A stretch of DNA of 45,120 nt. Source: an uncultured Ralstonia sp. Its GTDB lineage: Bacteria > Pseudomonadota > Gammaproteobacteria > Burkholderiales > Burkholderiaceae. The stretch is from contig CAJXMR010000018.1 of assembly GCA_913056305.1 (NCBI GenBank), forward strand, positions 1 through 45,120, read 5' to 3'. The stretch's first letter is position 1, and each line of letters begins with the position of its first letter. Below, in pieces: positions 20,863 to 38,952 of this stretch. A program made the position numbers and the translations under genes. The notes beneath the pieces were generated by a model. That model made no database searches, was not told the origin of the DNA, and saw nothing but the letters and a program-made list of their open reading frames with translations.

Positions 20863-21336
20863 ATGACCACTCAGCTCACACCCGCCCAACACGCCATCCT
20901 GGCCTATGCCCATCAACACACCGAGGGCAAGATCACCTGGTTCCCGGACCACATCAAAGGCGGCGCGCGCAAGAAGGTTCTCGACGGACTGTCCAACCGC
21001 ACTCTGATCACGAACACCGGCGACGACTGGTTCATCGCCGCCGAGGGTTACGAGGCGCTGGGCGTACCGCGCAAGGCGCCGGTCAGCGCCAAGGCGATCG
21101 ACGAGGCCATCGAACAAGCCAAGCCGCGCACGCGCGAGAACAGCAAGCAGGCCCAGGTGATCGCGATGCTCAAGCGACCGGAGGGCGCCACCATCGCGCA
21201 GATCGTTGAGGTGACTGGCTGGCAGCCGCACACGGTGCGCGGCACCTTTGCTGGCGCCTTCAAGAAGAAGCTGGGCCTGACGATCACGTCGACCAAGGTG
21301 AACGGCGGCGAGCGGATCTACGCCATCACCGGCTGA
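20863..21336 (+). CDS. DUF3489-family protein
   Basis: A 157-residue protein on the opposite strand to all flanking phage genes. The C-terminal half (KQAQVIAMLKRPEGATIAQI, then VTGWQPHTVRGTFAGAFKK, ending NGGERIYAI) is the DUF3489 domain, which looks like a winged helix. The N-terminal half (TPAQHAILAYAHQHTEGKI) is a second possible helical unit. A GGAG ribosome-binding site lies upstream of the ATG. The 3' end overlaps the convergent methyltransferase gene by 19 bp. Its orientation suggests separate expression, perhaps in the lysogen. Confidence 0.85.
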   Translation: MTTQLTPAQHAILAYAHQHTEGKITWFPDHIKGGARKKVLDGLSNRTLITNTGDDWFIAAEGYEALGVPRKAPVSAKAIDEAIEQAKPRTRENSKQAQVIAMLKRPEGATIAQIVEVTGWQPHTVRGTFAGAFKKKLGLTITSTKVNGGERIYAITG

Positions 21337-22580
21337 TCCGCCTCCGGCACCGTTCCGAATTTCGCGCCATCACTGGCGCGTATCGCTTCTTGCCCCGTGT
21401 AGTCCTGCCAGCGGCGCACGATCACATCGACATACTTCGGATCGAGTTCGATCAGACGGGCACGGCGGCCGGATTTTTCGCAGGCGATCAGCGTGGAGCC
21501 GGAGCCGCCGAACGGATCGAGCACGATGTCTTTGGTCTTGCTGCTGTTGCGCACCGCGCGCTCGACGAGTTCCACCGGTTTCATGGTCGGGTGCAGATCG
21601 TTCTTGGCCGGCTTCTTGATGTTCCAGACGTCGCCCTGATCACGGGCGCCACACCAGTAGTGATCGGTGCCGTCACGCCAGCCATAGAGGATCGGCTCGT
21701 ACTGGCGCTGATAGTCGGCGCGTCCGAGGGTGAAGGTGTTCTTGGCCCAGATGATGAAGGTCGACCAGCGACCGCCGGCAGCGCGGAAGGCCGATTGCAG
21801 GGTGTCGAGTTCGCTGGAACTCATGGCGACATAGACGGCGCCCTTGGTGACGCCCAAGATGTTCTGGCAGGCGGCAAGCAGGAATGCTTCGAAGCCGTCG
21901 CCCAGGTTGTCGTTCAGGATCGGACGATTCTTGCCGCGCAATTTGTCCTTGGCCGTGTTGGCGTAGTTCACGTTGTACGGTGGATCGGTGAAAGCCATGT
22001 CCGGCAATTCGTCACCGAGCAGCAGCTTGTAGTCGTCCGTCTTGGTGGCGTCGCCACACAGCAGTTTGTGATCGCCCAGCAACCACACGTCGCCCGTTTT
22101 GGAGATGGGTGTTTCAGGCACTTCCGGCACAGCATCGTCGTCGGTGAGCCCGTCCTTGGTAGCTTCGTCGCCTGCGATCAGCGCTTCCCATTCGTCGGGA
22201 GAAAAGCCTGTCAGGCCGAGGTCGAAGCCGGCGTCTTTCAGCTCGGACAACTCAATGCCCAGCAGTTCGTCTTCCCAGGAGGCGTTCTCGCCGATCTTGT
22301 TGTCAGCCAGGATCAGCGCCCGACGTTGGGTGTCCGTCAGATGCTCCAGCGGGACGACCGGAACCTCCGTCATGCCGAGCTTGCGGGCAGCCAGCAGGCG
22401 ACCGTGGCCGGCGATCACATTGTTCTTGCCATCGATCAGGATCGGCGCACCCCAACCGAACTCGCGGATGCTGGCGGCGATCTGCGCGACCTGGGCATCC
22501 GAGTGCTGCTTGGCATTGCGGGCGTACGGGATCAGCGAGTCGATCGGACGGTAGTGGATCTGCAGCGCGCTCATCGGCAT
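21318..22580 (-). CDS. ParB-domain DNA methyltransferase (DNA modification methylase)
   Basis: A 420-residue protein in two parts. Residues about 1-110 are a ParB/Srx-like domain (IPYARNAKQHSDAQVAQI, IDGKNNVIAGHGRLLAA). Residues about 165-405 are an amino-methyltransferase with the catalytic motif DPPYNV (in AFTDPPYNVNYAN) and the SAM-binding motif DPFGGSGSTLIACE near the C-terminus, a permuted order (DPPY before FGGSG) as in beta-class enzymes. It would methylate adenine N6 or cytosine N4. No restriction partner is seen, so it probably protects phage DNA or changes host methylation. No clear ribosome-binding site; the ATG at 22574 is an alternative start. Confidence 0.92.
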   Translation of the reverse strand: MPMSALQIHYRPIDSLIPYARNAKQHSDAQVAQIAASIREFGWGAPILIDGKNNVIAGHGRLLAARKLGMTEVPVVPLEHLTDTQRRALILADNKIGENASWEDELLGIELSELKDAGFDLGLTGFSPDEWEALIAGDEATKDGLTDDDAVPEVPETPISKTGDVWLLGDHKLLCGDATKTDDYKLLLGDELPDMAFTDPPYNVNYANTAKDKLRGKNRPILNDNLGDGFEAFLLAACQNILGVTKGAVYVAMSSSELDTLQSAFRAAGGRWSTFIIWAKNTFTLGRADYQRQYEPILYGWRDGTDHYWCGARDQGDVWNIKKPAKNDLHPTMKPVELVERAVRNSSKTKDIVLDPFGGSGSTLIACEKSGRRARLIELDPKYVDVIVRRWQDYTGQEAIRASDGAKFGTVPEADQPVMA

Positions 22581-23152: not shown

Positions 23153-23357
23153 GGCGACGCTCCTTGTTCCCATACAGGCGGTTGCCAATGCGACGGAGCA
23201 GCTCACGCTCGGACCAGTCGAGTCGTGTGTCCTCGGGTGAAATGACGAGGATGTGCTGGTCGAGCCATCCCTCGCGTTTGATCTCTTCGGGATCTCGTCG
23301 GGGCTCTGGCACGAGCCGTCCCAGCGGGCTGCGGTACTGAGGTGTGGGGATCTTCAT
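23145..23357 (-). CDS. Small phage protein, unknown function
   Basis: A 70-residue protein starting MKIPTPQYRSPLGRLVPEP. It is rich in charged residues and has a PRRDPEEIKREGWLDQHIL segment followed by a helical C-terminus (DWSERELLRRIGNRLYG). An AGGAGG ribosome-binding site stands 6 bp before the ATG, which supports translation. It overlaps the DUF6362 gene by 8 bp. I do not recognise the family. Confidence 0.7.
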   Translation of the reverse strand: MKIPTPQYRSPLGRLVPEPRRDPEEIKREGWLDQHILVISPEDTRLDWSERELLRRIGNRLYGNKERRHG

Positions 23358-23358
23358 G

Positions 23359-24147
23359 TCACACCTCCTGCCCATCGTGGTAGATCTGGATGGCCCAGTG
23401 CAGGATCGCCAGGGCATCGGCCTCGTTGTCATCCGTAGGCGCATATCCAAGAAGCCGGGCGGCAGCGATCATGTCGTCCTTGCTTGCGTTGCCTTTGCCG
23501 GTCGCGTGCTTCTTGATCGTGCCAACCGGAACGCCCTGGTACGGGATCTGATGGTGTTCGCACCAGGCAGTCAGATGGGCCATGAAACCGCCGTAGGCGT
23601 GCGCGGCATCGACGCCGGCATGACGACGGACCTCTTCGAAGAACACGGCATCCAAACCATCAGCAACCTGCTTGAGTTCGGTGAGCCAGCGTTTGAAGCG
23701 GAGGTAGCGCATGCCGCCACCCTCGAAGCGCTGTGGCTTGAACCCTTCGGTTCCACTGCTGATGTCGCCGTCACGGTCCAGCAGAGCCCAACCGGTCTGG
23801 GTGCCGAGATCCAGCGCCAAGATCGCGTTTCCGTTCGCCGGCAGACCGCCCCCATCCCGACCTCCAGGCAAACCTCCACGTAAGGTAGAGGGAACTGCTG
23901 TTCCCTCTCCTACGTAGTAGGAGGGGGAGTTTTCGCCAACTTGGAATTCCCGGAAAACCCAGTATCCATGCGGGTTTGCTGAAGTTGGCAAGTTGGCGGC
24001 GCTGCCAACTTGCCAATTTGCCGACAACTCCGCAAGGCGTTGATTTGAAATGGATTGAAGTTGGCAGGTGTTTGCCAACTTGCCGACGTCGGCAAAAAGC
24101 AGGGGGAAGTTGGCAACGGTTTTGCCAACTTGTCGATGCGTGTTCAT
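23359..24147 (-). CDS. RuvC-like Holliday junction resolvase with unusual N-terminal extension
   Basis: A 262-residue protein. Residues about 107-262 are an RNase H-fold RuvC-like nuclease: AILALDLGTQTGWALLD (Asp113), VFFEEVRRHAG (Glu171/172), ATGKGNASKDDM (about 216-226) and DDNEADALAILHW (Asp at about 240-244). It would resolve branched replication or recombination intermediates before packaging. The ATG overlaps the primase-helicase stop (ATGA) and has a CAGGAG ribosome-binding site, so this start looks real. The first about 105 residues, however, are translated iteron DNA (FADVGKLANTCQLQS, LPTSANPHG) and resemble no RuvC. A later non-ATG start cannot be excluded. Confidence 0.82.
   Translation of the reverse strand: MNTHRQVGKTVANFPLLFADVGKLANTCQLQSISNQRLAELSANWQVGSAANLPTSANPHGYWVFREFQVGENSPSYYVGEGTAVPSTLRGGLPGGRDGGGLPANGNAILALDLGTQTGWALLDRDGDISSGTEGFKPQRFEGGGMRYLRFKRWLTELKQVADGLDAVFFEEVRRHAGVDAAHAYGGFMAHLTAWCEHHQIPYQGVPVGTIKKHATGKGNASKDDMIAAARLLGYAPTDDNEADALAILHWAIQIYHDGQEV
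23887..23908. repeat. Perfect inverted repeat, 9-bp arms
   Basis: AGAGGGAAC (23887-23895) and GTTCCCTCT (23900-23908) flank TGCT. A second short inverted repeat, TCCTAC-GTA-GTAGGA, begins at 23908. Both lie at the edge of the iteron array within the RuvC-like reading frame and could form a stem in DNA or mRNA. Confidence 0.6.
23935..24131. repeat. Iteron array AAGTTGGC/GCCAACTT, candidate replication origin
   Basis: Eight exact octamers AAGTTGGC or its complement occur at 23935, 23982, 23990, 24004, 24058, 24074, 24107 and 24124, plus a variant at 24012. They are arranged as three inverted pairs: 13-bp perfect arms at 23985-23997 and 24004-24016; 9-bp arms at 24058-24066 and 24073-24081; 10-bp arms at 24107-24116 and 24122-24131. 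A separate 16-bp perfect palindrome lies at 24080-24095 around GACGTC. The array abuts the 3' end of the primase-helicase gene. Such spacing and neighbourhood fit a replication origin. A regulatory or recombination role is possible. Confidence 0.65.
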
Positions 24148-26333
24148 GCGGGCTCCTGAGGATCGTTGATGTCGTCTTGGTAAACCCACACCTCGGGGTT
24201 CTCGACCGGCAAGGCGGCCCCCGATTGCGGGCATTTGAAGTGGGTGGGCTGTACGGCGAGTTCGCGCAACGGCACTTCGCCGGTGTCTGGATCGGGTTCG
24301 CCAGCGACCGAGCGCAGGACCATGCCTTCCACGCAGAGGTAGCCGAATTTGGTGCGGGCTGGCGGCAGGCCGTAGTCGACTGCATTGCGGAAATACTTGA
24401 TGTAGCCCTGCGTCGAGAGCGCAGAAAGCCGCTCGCGGATCGTGCGCTCGCCGCCGAGCCCCGCCTTGCCTTCGAAGCCTTCGGCGAACTGATTGGCGGT
24501 GTAGCAGCGACCCTGCGCAGCCTCATCGAACAGGATCTGCAGGATCACATCGCGTTTGCGGCGGCGTTCGGCATCGAGCCGCTGGCCATACTCCTGCATG
24601 ACCAGCCGCTCATTGGGTTCGACCTCGCGCCACTCCCCCTGCACCTTGTCCACGTGCTTGAGGGGGATGCCCGGCCCATTGCGCAATTCGAAGATGAGCT
24701 GCCGCGTCGTGCGCAGCTCGTCGGGCCGATACAGCAGCATTCCGCTCGAGTAGTAGCCGCGCAGGCTGCCGGCACCGGCCAGAGCCTGGAACGGGTCCTC
24801 CTCGAACTGCTTCTTGCCCAGCTTCCTCGTGTGGTGGGCCAGGATCACCCCGGCATCCGGATTCACCGCCTGGCGAAGCCGGTCCACCCGTTGCGAGAGA
24901 AAAAACAGCATCGCGCCGTTGTCGTTCTCGCCACCGGCGTCGCCGCCATCGAACACATTGCGGATGGGATCGATGGCGATGATGTCCGGAGGCTCGCCAC
25001 CAAACGCATTCGCAATGGCAGGAATCACCTGCGCGAGGCCGGCGTCGTCCAGCACGAGGCGCAGCTGGGGCGTGGCCACGAAGTTCGCGCGGGCATCCAG
25101 GAGCCGGCTGGGTGGAATGCGCAGCTCTTTGACCCGTTCGCGCAGGTAGTGGTACTGCACCTCTGCCTGCAGGTAGAACACGCGCAAAGGGCGTGACGGG
25201 CGCATGCCGAGAAAGGCGGCACCAGCGGCCATGTGGGTCAGCCAGGCCAGCAGGAAGTCGCTCTTGCCGACCTTGGGCGCGCCGCCGAAGACCAGCATTC
25301 CGGCCGGCGTCAGCACGCGCGGCGAGATGAGATCAGGCGGCAGCGGCGAATCGTCATCCAGCAGCGCGCCCAGCGTGAATGTCGGCAGCATCGGCAATGC
25401 CGCCTTGACCACGCGGCGCTCGCCCTGCGCGATGAACCCATCGCAGTCGAAGCCTTCGGCGACGGCATCAGCCGCGTCCCACTTGTCGGGCTTGTCGGAT
25501 GGCGGCACCAGAATGGCTACGGAAGCGCAGCCCGCCGCGACACAAGCGCGTGCGGCGTTCTCGGCGTAGTCCCAGCCCGGCGCGTCGCGGTCTGGCCAGA
25601 TCAGCACCGAGCGGCCAGCGAGCGGTCGCCAGTCGGTTTTGTCGATCGGCGCCCTGGCCCCGTTCATCGCGGTGGTGGCCGCAATGCCGCAGGCGATTAG
25701 CGCATCGGCGCATTTCTCGCCCTCGACCAGCACCACGTCCTGCAGCTTTGAGATTGCCGGCAGGTTGTAAAGCGGGCGCGGATCGGGTGCCCGCCACATC
25801 CGGGCGCGCACGTCCCAGGGGCGGTACTCCTTGCCGGTCGGTGGGTCGTAGCGGTACACACAGGCGATCAGCTCGCCCTCGGGCGTGAGGTAATCCCATT
25901 TCGCGGTGTAGGGGCCAAGCTCATCGACAGCAACGGTACGGACCGCGTGAGGAGCAATGGACTGCGCAGGCGGTGCGACTCCCAGCCACTGGCGAATCTC
26001 CGTGGCAAGACGGGGAAAATCCTGGCGCGTGGACAGCCCCTGGGATCGTGCCCACAGGTCGATGACATCACCGCCATCGTCGGTGGCGAAGTCCTTCCAC
26101 AAACCGCGACGAGCGCCGTCGAGCTCGACGACCAGGCTTTTGCCGGGTGAGCCGTCGGTGTCGCCGACATAGAACTTGCCGCCCCGCATGCGGCCTTGGG
26201 GGAACAGGTAGTGCAAGACGGCTTCGAGCCGATCCAGCAACCCGGTACGCAACGTCTCCGTGTCATTTACGAGTTCATTTCGAGGTTCGGCCGCGTCGTT
26301 GAAGTCGAGCCACACGATATCGTTCGTCGTCAC
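24144..26333 (-). CDS. Phage primase-helicase (TOPRIM plus RepA-like AAA ATPase)
   Basis: A 729-residue replication protein. Residues about 45-130 are a primase-like region (GGKFYVGDTDGSPGKSLVVE). A TOPRIM domain is marked by VVLVEGEKCADALIACG (about 198) and LIWPDRDAPG. A RecA-fold ATPase follows, with Walker A GGAPKVGKSD (about 350) and Walker B IIAIDPIRN (about 450), then AHHTRKLGKK. The C-terminal about 150 residues include a winged helix. It would unwind and prime phage DNA. The GTG at 26333 overlaps the stop of the nuclease gene (GTGA); the 3' end abuts the iteron array. Confidence 0.9.
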   Translation of the reverse strand: MTTNDIVWLDFNDAAEPRNELVNDTETLRTGLLDRLEAVLHYLFPQGRMRGGKFYVGDTDGSPGKSLVVELDGARRGLWKDFATDDGGDVIDLWARSQGLSTRQDFPRLATEIRQWLGVAPPAQSIAPHAVRTVAVDELGPYTAKWDYLTPEGELIACVYRYDPPTGKEYRPWDVRARMWRAPDPRPLYNLPAISKLQDVVLVEGEKCADALIACGIAATTAMNGARAPIDKTDWRPLAGRSVLIWPDRDAPGWDYAENAARACVAAGCASVAILVPPSDKPDKWDAADAVAEGFDCDGFIAQGERRVVKAALPMLPTFTLGALLDDDSPLPPDLISPRVLTPAGMLVFGGAPKVGKSDFLLAWLTHMAAGAAFLGMRPSRPLRVFYLQAEVQYHYLRERVKELRIPPSRLLDARANFVATPQLRLVLDDAGLAQVIPAIANAFGGEPPDIIAIDPIRNVFDGGDAGGENDNGAMLFFLSQRVDRLRQAVNPDAGVILAHHTRKLGKKQFEEDPFQALAGAGSLRGYYSSGMLLYRPDELRTTRQLIFELRNGPGIPLKHVDKVQGEWREVEPNERLVMQEYGQRLDAERRRKRDVILQILFDEAAQGRCYTANQFAEGFEGKAGLGGERTIRERLSALSTQGYIKYFRNAVDYGLPPARTKFGYLCVEGMVLRSVAGEPDPDTGEVPLRELAVQPTHFKCPQSGAALPVENPEVWVYQDDINDPQEPA

Positions 26334-36010: not shown

Positions 36011-36510
36011 TGAGAACGAATACAAGCACCTTCACCACGTCACCCTCGGTGGCTGCGCAGATCGCACGATTGCCCGAGCTTCCTATGCCGGAAATCAAAG
36101 CGCTCTGGCTATGGCTCTTCGGCGGCGATACGCCCACCCACAACCGCCAGTTTCTCGAGCGCCGCATTGCCTACCGCCTGCAGGAGATGGAGTTCCGCAA
36201 GGTCGATGTCGGCCTGCTGGAGCGCAACAAGCGCCGCATCGCATCCTTGATCGAGACCGGCAAGGTCAAGAAGCGCGATCGCGACTACCGACCGGCAGCC
36301 GGGACCGTGCTGACCCGTGAGTACCAGGGCGTTGAGCACCGCGTGATCGTGACCCAGGACGGTCAGTACGACTTCCAGGGCCGGATGTACCCGAGCCTGT
36401 CGATGATCGCCCGCGAAATCACCGGCACGCGCTGGTCTGGGCCGCTGTTCTTCGGGCTCAAGGCACCCGCCACACCCAAGACGAAGGCGAAGAAGGGAGC
36501 GCGGCGATGA
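36010..36510 (+). CDS. DUF2924-family protein
   Basis: A 166-residue protein of the DUF2924 family. Typical features are SVAAQIARLPELPMPEIKAL, the FLERRIAYRLQEMEF helix, and TVLTREYQGVEHRVIVTQDG with FQGRMYPSLSMIAREITGTR (a winged-helix-like unit) near the C-terminus, then a lysine-rich tail. Members occur almost always just before a serine recombinase. A DNA-binding or accessory role in recombination is likely but not proven. The ATG overlaps the previous stop, and its own stop overlaps the recombinase ATG. Confidence 0.9.
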   Translation: MRTNTSTFTTSPSVAAQIARLPELPMPEIKALWLWLFGGDTPTHNRQFLERRIAYRLQEMEFRKVDVGLLERNKRRIASLIETGKVKKRDRDYRPAAGTVLTREYQGVEHRVIVTQDGQYDFQGRMYPSLSMIAREITGTRWSGPLFFGLKAPATPKTKAKKGARR

Positions 36511-37862
36511 GCGAAGTTTTGAAGCGCCGCATGCGCTGCGCCGTCTACACCCGCAAGTCCACCGATGAGGGGCTGGACCAGGAATACAACTCCATCGACG
36601 CCCAGCGCGATGCCGGCCACGCCTACATCGCCAGCCAACGCGCCGAAGGTTGGATTCCTGTCGCAGATGACTATGACGATCCGGCGTTCTCCGGCGGCAA
36701 CATGGATCGTCCCGCACTCAAGCGGCTGATGGCGGACATCGAGGCGGGCAAGATCGATGTGGTCGTCATTTACAAGATCGACCGCCTCACACGCAGCCTT
36801 GCCGACTTCTCCAAGATGGTCGAGGTGTTCGAACGCTACGGCGTGTCCTTCGTGTCGGTCACCCAGCAGTTCAACACCACCACGTCGATGGGGCGACTGA
36901 TGTTGAACATCCTGCTGTCCTTCGCCCAGTTCGAGCGCGAGGTCACGGGCGAGCGCATCCGCGACAAGATCGCCGCCAGCAAGCGCAAGGGCATGTGGAT
37001 GGGTGGTGTCCCGCCGCTCGGCTACGACGTCGAGAACCGGCGGCTGGTACCCAACGAAAAGGAGGCCAAGCTCATCCGGAATATCTTCCAGCGTTTCGTC
37101 GAACTCGGCTCCGGCACGCTGCTGTTCAAGGAGCTGAAGCTGGATGGCGTGACCTCCAAGGCATGGACCACGCAGGACGGCAAGACTCGCGAAGGCAAGC
37201 CGATCGACAAGGGACTGATCTACAAGCTGCTCAACAACCGCACCTACCTCGGCGAACTGCGCCACAAGGAGCAGTGGTACCAGGCCGAACATCCACCCAT
37301 CATCGACCGCGCGTTGTGGGATCAGGTGCACGCCATCCTGGCCACCAACGGCCGGGTGCGCGGCAATGCCACCCGGGCGACCGTGCCGTACCTGCTCAAG
37401 GGCATCGTATTCGGCAACGACGGACGGGCGCTGTCGCCGTTTCACACCACCAAGAAGAACGGCCGGCGCTACCGCTACTACGTGCCGCAGCGCGAGAACA
37501 AGGAGCACGCGGGCGCGTCGGGGCTGCCGCGACTACCAGCCGCTGAACTCGAATCCGCCGTGCTGGACCAGCTGCGCTCGATCCTGCGATCGCCGGCTCT
37601 CTTGGGCGACGTCCTGCCGCGCGCTATTGAACTGGATCCCAGTCTCGACGAGGCCAAGGTCACGGTCGCCATGACACGGCTCGACACGATTTGGGACCAG
37701 CTGTTCCCGGCCGAGCAGACGCGCATCGTCAAGCTGCTGGTCGAGAAGGTGATCGTGTCGCCCAACGATCTCGAAGTGCGATTGCGCGCCAACGGCATCG
37801 AGCGCTTGGTGTTGGAACTGCAACCGGCGGGCGTTGCCCAGCCCGAGGAGGCCTTGTCATGA
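36507..37862 (+). CDS. Large serine recombinase (phage integrase)
   Basis: A 451-residue serine recombinase. The catalytic domain runs from residue 8 to about 160: AVYTRKSTDEG with nucleophile Ser18, then YNSIDAQRDAGHAYIASQRA, VYKIDRLTRS and LNILLSFAQFEREVTGERIR. The recombinase domain follows (VPPLGYDVENRRLVPNEKEA, YKLLNNRTYLGELRH). In the region where large serine recombinases carry a zinc ribbon (LLKGIVFGNDGRALSPFHTT) no cysteines are present, and Cys11 is the only cysteine I see in the protein. It is coupled to DUF2924 and HTH genes on both sides. Confidence 0.93.
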   Translation: MSEVLKRRMRCAVYTRKSTDEGLDQEYNSIDAQRDAGHAYIASQRAEGWIPVADDYDDPAFSGGNMDRPALKRLMADIEAGKIDVVVIYKIDRLTRSLADFSKMVEVFERYGVSFVSVTQQFNTTTSMGRLMLNILLSFAQFEREVTGERIRDKIAASKRKGMWMGGVPPLGYDVENRRLVPNEKEAKLIRNIFQRFVELGSGTLLFKELKLDGVTSKAWTTQDGKTREGKPIDKGLIYKLLNNRTYLGELRHKEQWYQAEHPPIIDRALWDQVHAILATNGRVRGNATRATVPYLLKGIVFGNDGRALSPFHTTKKNGRRYRYYVPQRENKEHAGASGLPRLPAAELESAVLDQLRSILRSPALLGDVLPRAIELDPSLDEAKVTVAMTRLDTIWDQLFPAEQTRIVKLLVEKVIVSPNDLEVRLRANGIERLVLELQPAGVAQPEEALS

Positions 37863-38593: not shown

Positions 38594-38952
38594 TGGTGGA
38601 GCCGGCGGGAATCGAACCCGCGTCCGCAAGTCCTCTACAGAGCGTTCTACATACTTAGTTCAGTCATTTGATTTAACCGCCGCATCGCGGACGAACACGC
38701 TCTACGACGGCGATTCACTAGGGTTTTCGTCCTCGGGCCCGTGACGCACCCGAGGCTTATCTGACGTAAATGACCTCGCTGGTCTTGCGACCCTAGCCCG
38801 TCAGCGAGCCAGTGCGAGGACGGCAGCCCTTAGGCTGCCAGTGCGTAACGTTCGTCGTTAGCAGTTATTGCATTCCCATTGATTAACGAGGTGACGGGTC
38901 CTCGGTATGCCCGCTACTGCTTCGCAACCCACGTCGAAACCAGGTCGGCCCC
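38594..38952 (-). ncRNA. ssrA: Transfer-messenger RNA (tmRNA)
   Basis: tmRNA rescues stalled ribosomes. On the minus strand the gene starts GGGGCCGACCTGGTTTCGAC at 38952 and ends with the T-arm/acceptor sequence GGTTCGATTCCCGCC and CCA at 38594-38596. The acceptor arms (GGGGCCG and CGGCTCC) pair. The tag reading frame (38862-38830) encodes ANDERYALAA and stops at TAA, as in betaproteobacteria. A GATAAT lies about 20 bp upstream as a possible -10. The 3' end is complete, so any prophage inserted at tmRNA left it functional. Confidence 0.96.

Follow-up and report, generated by a model that had tools for sequence, protein, structure and literature searches.

Genes and repeats at the locus

The window, by which we mean the whole 45,120-base stretch of DNA analysed, looks like a prophage from its gene content, which includes terminase, portal, protease, major head protein, tape measure, baseplate and integrase genes, together with recombination genes of Cas4-exonuclease and Sak4 type. 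The integrase gene (36507-37862), which has a DNA invertase match too, adjoins a tmRNA gene (38594-38952) that may be the integration site of the prophage. At 21318-22580 lies a gene for a DNA methyltransferase with a ParB-like N-terminal domain, for which the Pfam result falls just below cut-off and the PHROG matches are strong.

The gene of main interest encodes a 743-residue primase-helicase, P0002 (24144-26375, minus strand; PHROG DNA primase/helicase, 1.6e-68), with a primase region, an AAA_25 helicase (Pfam, 4e-21) and a C-terminal winged-helix domain placed by structure prediction at about residues 602-686 (24318-24572, minus strand). AAA_25 is the helicase match: no SF3 or D5 helicase family was reported for P0002 in the Pfam search at E up to 0.001, and no solved protein chain matched it by sequence. 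Primase, helicase and predicted binding domain are carried on this one chain, with no separate RepC initiator or RepB' primase arrangement.

Directly behind it on the same strand lies a RuvC-like gene with an extended N-terminus (23359-24147, minus strand; PHROG RuvC-like resolvase, 9.3e-35). The two genes overlap in an ATGA, with the primase-helicase stop at 24144-24146 and the RuvC-like ATG at 24145-24147. From this ATG the reading frame is open to the RuvC domain, through an extension of about 102 residues predicted without structure (23842-24147, minus strand) that contains a repeat array. The first-pass annotation had placed the array inside this extension, beside the primase-helicase gene, and had described the RuvC-like start as coupled; the open frame and the positions of stop and ATG bear out both points.

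The array is built from the octamer GCCAACTT, or AAGTTGGC on the other strand. An exact count over the window found eight copies, four per strand, all at 23935-24131, and no exact copy elsewhere in the 45,120 bases. One hundred dinucleotide-preserving shuffles of the window gave a mean of 0.84 copies and a maximum of three, in agreement with the earlier claim that eight in about 200 bp is far beyond chance. Reading away from the primase-helicase stop, the copies lie at 24124-24131 (plus), 24107-24114 (minus), 24074-24081 (plus), 24058-24065 (minus), 24004-24011 (plus), 23990-23997 (minus) and 23982-23989 (minus), with a lone copy at 23935-23942 (plus). Comparison of arrays between loci added a copy with one mismatch, GCCAATTT, at 24012-24019 (plus).

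The inverted pairs described in the first-pass annotation could be read from the sequence at 23985-23997/24004-24016 (arms of 13, spacer of 6), 24058-24066/24073-24081 (arms of 9, spacer of 6) and 24107-24116/24122-24131 (arms of 10, spacer of 5). The 16-bp palindrome it mentioned is also there, in the inverted-repeat list at 24080-24095 (no strand). Because several relatives carry an ordinary iteron at this spot (position 51-54 in loci L004, L018 and L091), the palindrome is probably a decayed iteron copy.

The array is retained with the primase-helicase gene

Comparing array conservation with protein conservation in related phages had been suggested as a check. Searches with the primase-helicase found 79 loci in species genomes and 80 in viral contigs, or 160 with the window, and 133 of the 160 have both primase-helicase and RuvC. 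An octamer in at least four copies around or after the primase-helicase stop was found in 139 of 146 loci, window included, whether RuvC was present or absent, so that relatives keeping the primase-helicase keep the array; these raw counts overstate independence because many loci are near-copies. The seven exceptions are L019 and L053, with fewer or poorer copies, L074, L151 and L152, in each of which the best octamer occurs three times, and L030 and L068, identical regions from one genome that have kept the primase-helicase with no recognisable array. The primase-helicase is likewise kept with no clear array in L171; L030, L068 and L171 represent a lineage with Ser at residue 647, as read in L030 and L171. 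Counted locus by locus, the exact octamer of each locus occurs at 15.2 per kb in the array region versus 0.05 per kb outside it, a roughly 300-fold difference in density.

The octamer switches in concert between lineages, which have AAGTTGGC, CAGTTGGC, CAGATTGC, CAGTTTGC, CAGATGGC, CAGTGGGC or others. Arrays of differing octamers nevertheless occupy the same place with a similar layout. In the main group an inverted pair comes first and another inverted group next; beyond a spacer follow two copies in forward and two in reverse orientation, and a single last copy stands after a gap. The exact order ><<><>><<> occurs in 34 of 122 distinct loci, and other lineages show variants or other orders.

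Retention of the array could be separated from that of the RuvC-like gene. In 118 of 133 loci the RuvC frame stays open on its upstream side beyond the primase stop; it is broken in the other 15, and 13 of these retain the array. So do nine of the ten loci in which no RuvC match was found over 1.3 kb or more of downstream sequence. These results imply that the array belongs with the primase-helicase, which we propose as its initiator, and that the following gene simply reads through it.

Six viral contigs from different metagenome samples (L082-L087) encode a primase-helicase 100% identical to that of the window, and in five of the six the array region is identical as well. Close relatives of the module also occur in assemblies labelled Bacillota or Geobacter (L003, L014 and L012), possibly through binning errors. 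The gap to RuvC is long in L060 (647 nt) and L030 (571 nt) and, on visual inspection, appears to contain an additional small frame; in L060 the array stays beside the primase-helicase despite this gap.

Octamer sequence covaries with the predicted winged helix

If P0002 were the initiator, its predicted C-terminal winged helix would be expected to change with the repeats, and residues of this domain do track the iteron sequence. For iteron base 6 we began with 129 distinct loci, and because all of them passed the array score, the score did not discriminate. L019, L030, L171 and L074, with no clear array, were set aside by hand, and L060 was dropped where the pattern missed the residue (by eye it has R with G, in agreement), leaving 124 rows; the residues of L055 (Y) and L181 (A) were entered by hand. 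In 124 of these 124 rows, residue 647 of the predicted recognition helix (R647 in the window; codon at 24435-24437, minus strand) is Arg whenever base 6 is G, and never Arg when base 6 is T. Among the loci set aside, L030 and L171 have Ser with T and would agree, and L019 has R with A from a wrong automatic motif, three CAGTTGGC-like copies being visible by eye.

Residue 647 was the best of 743 columns in the base-6 scan (0.95), and 652 of the same helix came second; residue 128, outside the winged helix, scored 0.898. On an LG+G4 tree of the remaining protein, which carries a warning of long branches that meet, each trait changed ten times, and eight of eight independent pairs on supported branches agreed (p 0.008). 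A first association scan that took bases 4-6 jointly was less focused on this domain, with residue 419 as its top column and 10 of the 25 best columns before residue 601.

A second association concerns the wing, PPA at codons 671-673 in the window (24357-24365, minus strand). A three-residue wing accompanies A at iteron base 1 in 69 of 69 rows, these being the 70 dereplicated rows of A/C type minus L089, whose wing was unreadable; among the 21 short-wing rows, two (L025 and L100) have one C copy at base 1. Wing length and base 1 showed 11 changes, with agreement in six of six supported independent pairs (p 0.03). Of all 743 columns, residue 672 alone reached 69/69, and the next outside the wing reached 62. 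Third codon positions reached at most 59, and columns of RuvC at most 52 of 63 over a baseline of 45.

Both rules were derived from the data; the wing rule alone was afterwards put to the test in additional loci. Among 13 further distinct loci, all five with repeats of the AGTTGGC class obey it, including phage WO and a plasmid; the wing of L168 was read by eye. The rule is violated by L079, which has a four-residue wing with AAGTTTGC and falls outside the two main classes and the AGTTGGC class.

These comparisons bear on two other explanations. The array might be the target of the RuvC-like resolvase, or form a cruciform that this enzyme cuts: the RuvC-like gene overlaps the array, and inverted repeats could extrude cruciforms. 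Iteron type, however, hardly tracks RuvC, as its best column shows, and the array persists where RuvC is not found or lies further away, so that we regard this explanation as very improbable. Alternatively, the covariation could be mere hitch-hiking of neighbouring stretches, with the repeats being selfish or neutral. Some of the covariation does reflect joint inheritance of the array and the adjacent predicted binding domain, as fourfold sites in the last codons of the gene (721-743) follow iteron type too (score 0.18). R647 and the wing nevertheless outscore every other site tested, including those nearer the array, and differing octamers hold the same place and a similar layout; hitch-hiking as the whole explanation therefore seems to us highly unlikely. 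Taken together, the results show the repeat varying jointly with the primase-helicase's C-terminal domain, as expected of an initiator and its origin.

An IHF-like site and a hairpin accompany the repeats

Between the two half-arrays lies an IHF-like site, AATCAACGCCTTG (24033-24045, minus strand), at position 99 after the primase stop. It was read in the row for L083, whose array region is identical to that of the window, and is a perfect match to WATCAANNNNTTR, which we take to be the IHF consensus and used for scoring. A perfect consensus occurs in 39 of 125 distinct loci versus 2 of 496 background windows taken from the primase gene, and a consensus with at most one mismatch in 97 of 125 versus 32 of 496. 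Position 99 or 102, counted from the stop and lying between the half-arrays, accounts for 59 of these 97 best matches; among the 39 perfect ones, 21 are at 99 or 102 and nine more at 243, in loci with a long insertion. The perfect match is kept in several loci in which the RuvC frame is broken (L030, L035, L036, L041, L060, L071, L079 and L106). An IHF consensus is found, then, between putative initiator sites, the arrangement looked for in an origin that would use IHF.

Past the last iteron the hairpin scan found two stem-loops. Hairpin 1 (23907-23923, no strand; CTCCTAC-GTA-GTAGGAG) has a 7-bp stem and a triloop that reads GTA on the plus strand and TAC on the coding strand, and hairpin 2 (23887-23908, no strand; also in the inverted-repeat list) has a 9-bp stem and a 4-nt loop. 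A perfect stem of at least six pairs past the last iteron, with a C-G-closed TAC or TTC loop on the coding strand, is present in 110 of 124 distinct loci versus 7 of 492 background windows. It takes the form of 16 stem-loop sequences, some overlapping, and one of them is common to 70 of the 110. On the opposite strand the loop reads C-GNA-G, a form that makes very stable DNA mini-hairpins in phage origins and in phage N4 promoters. No separate AT-rich unwinding element was identified at the array, and GC skew was weak in the one plasmid relative for which it was computed.

The stretch past the last iteron also folds strongly as RNA, which raises the question of whether the repeats are a structured mRNA element or a device for translational coupling. 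We give this reading very little probability. No Rfam family came near its gathering score in 23300-24400, the iterons are found in either orientation and in each of the three codon phases, and it is a predicted DNA-binding domain that their sequence tracks. The conserved hairpin itself may act as DNA or as RNA; in its common form the stem, judged by eye, would not close an RNA tetraloop of the UNCG kind and does close the triloop.

A probable DNA signal within an open reading frame

Because the frame is open in most loci, the array is probably translated in most of these phages. We compared codon positions, reading frames and structure predictions, and found no sign that the peptide encoded by the array part matters. 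In the array spacers, third codon positions vary no more freely than first and second ones (0.115, 0.146, 0.134); in the stretch beyond the array they do (0.062, 0.062, 0.110), and some peptide constraint is therefore possible in that stretch. Structure prediction from an alignment of 18 sequences gave the extension a mean pLDDT of 33-43 per ten-residue block over residues 1-100, and most of the RuvC domain was well predicted in the same run. The 94 distinct extensions that run from the ATGA start to RuvC, in rows chosen for an open frame, have ten lengths between 195 and 480 nt, so length changes among them are in frame.

Discussion

We consider it very likely that the array is the replication origin of the prophage, bound by the prophage's own primase-helicase and read through by the next gene. 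The first-pass annotation had raised the idea of a phage origin inside a gene, and the idea gains support from conservation of the array in relatives, from covariation with the C-terminal domain and from arrays kept without RuvC. We infer origin function here with a named protein partner and specific residues.

The predicted winged helix, encoded directly upstream of the array, would bind the octamers, with R647 of the recognition helix reading G at base 6 and the wing reading base 1. IHF would bend the DNA at the central site and so bring the two half-arrays together. The duplex would then open and the helicase part be loaded, and the primase part would begin synthesis, perhaps at the hairpin just past the last repeat. 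The RuvC-like resolvase gene starts at the primase-helicase stop, and its translation would run through the origin, giving a tail for which no structure is predicted.

Covariation indicates a binding partnership and does not say what binding does. The array lies inside an operon, and the primase-helicase might bind it to control that operon or to limit copy number, with replication starting elsewhere; the crr region of phage P4, which limits copy number, is a precedent. Against such a regulatory site, the gene that the array would regulate lies upstream of it, the predicted binding domain shares its chain with a primase and a helicase, iterons, IHF-like site and hairpin make up the parts list of an origin, and the octamer is confined to this one place in the window. 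We judge a purely regulatory role improbable and favour the origin.

Initiators of the SaPI Rep and P4 alpha type have an SF3 or D5-type helicase. In SaPI Rep helicases and in SCCmec Cch2, the C-terminal domain binds iterons just behind the protein's own gene (PMC7581432). The present locus is similar in that the C-terminal domain of a helicase is matched to short repeats directly 3' of its own gene, where it would bind. It differs in that primase and helicase form one chain whose helicase part matches AAA_25, in that inverted iterons flank an IHF-like site, and in that the array lies in the frame of the next gene. By analogy, the system would operate in the manner of a SaPI Rep origin, though with a different class of helicase.

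Phage lambda offers a second comparison, as its inverted iterons lie inside gene O and are bound by its own initiator (PMC5043065). Inverted iterons within coding sequence are common to both, given the open RuvC frame through the array in most loci, but the lambda origin is in the initiator gene itself, whereas here it would be in the extension of a RuvC-like gene behind the initiator. The same source describes IHF as assisting origin opening at the iteron plasmids pSC101 and R6K. Our array resembles these in combining iterons with an IHF-like site, although their repeats are mostly direct and ours are inverted octamers beside a primase-helicase. A putative origin inside a gene is also described for phage KIRK of Francisella in PMC7924643.

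A possible resemblance to a RepA-type helicase comes from the AAA_25 match and from the annotation of phage WO gp5 (AB036666.1) as similar to RSF1010 RepA. RSF1010 oriV combines a RepA-type helicase, a primase, iterons and hairpin priming sites, the last as two facing ssi hairpins. Primase, iterons and a hairpin recur here, but RepA, RepB' and RepC of RSF1010 are three proteins where we find one chain, and its two facing hairpins compare with one conserved hairpin element.

Known phages and a plasmid can be set beside the window. In phage WO of Wolbachia (WOVitB, L162:5118-5500) an array of AAGTTGGC/AAGATGGC directly follows RepA, the wing is short as the rule expects and an IHF-like stretch can be seen by eye; unlike in the window, the array is intergenic. 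Acidithiobacillus phage AcaML1 has a related primase part with a different C-terminus, and different repeats (CCGTCAGA) lie between its primase and the next gene. The 71.7-kb circular plasmid pSU2 (L166, 2151-4620) has a related gene module, again with a different C-terminus, and repeats like GGGAACGC behind the gene that are not clearly beyond chance. Its gene table, which is incomplete, names no gene as replication initiator, and MOB-suite assigns it a replicon type.

A survey of phage WO (PMC9203015) leaves the array undescribed in the text available; the origin meant in that text is the bacterial one, and the word iteron is absent from its main text. Nor was a description of the array found in the accessible parts of the open-licence literature, including PMC9203015, PMC7924643, PMC7145576, PMC5043065 and PMC7581432, and the string AAGTTGGCAAGTTGGC was not found in the open-licence literature searched.

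More broadly, these loci may belong to a family of self-contained phage replicons whose single polypeptide serves as primase, helicase and initiator at once. Its recognition code would pair Arg647 with G, and Asn or another residue with T, at base 6, and a short wing with A at base 1; the same protein would prime at the C-GNA-G mini-hairpin beside the array; and the family would span phages of proteobacteria and phage WO of Wolbachia. We advance this wider proposal tentatively, as somewhat less probable than even. If it is true, the sequence of the protein would suffice to predict the type of origin.

Locating a phage origin by sequence is often difficult, as is finding the partner of an iteron array. 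For the present phage group, which occurs across many proteobacteria and takes in phage WO, the two putative partners can be named at the level of individual residues and bases. The proposed origin would double as translated sequence in most relatives, judging from their open frames, and is free of a reading frame in others. With natural pairs of protein and origin at hand, origin recognition becomes directly testable.
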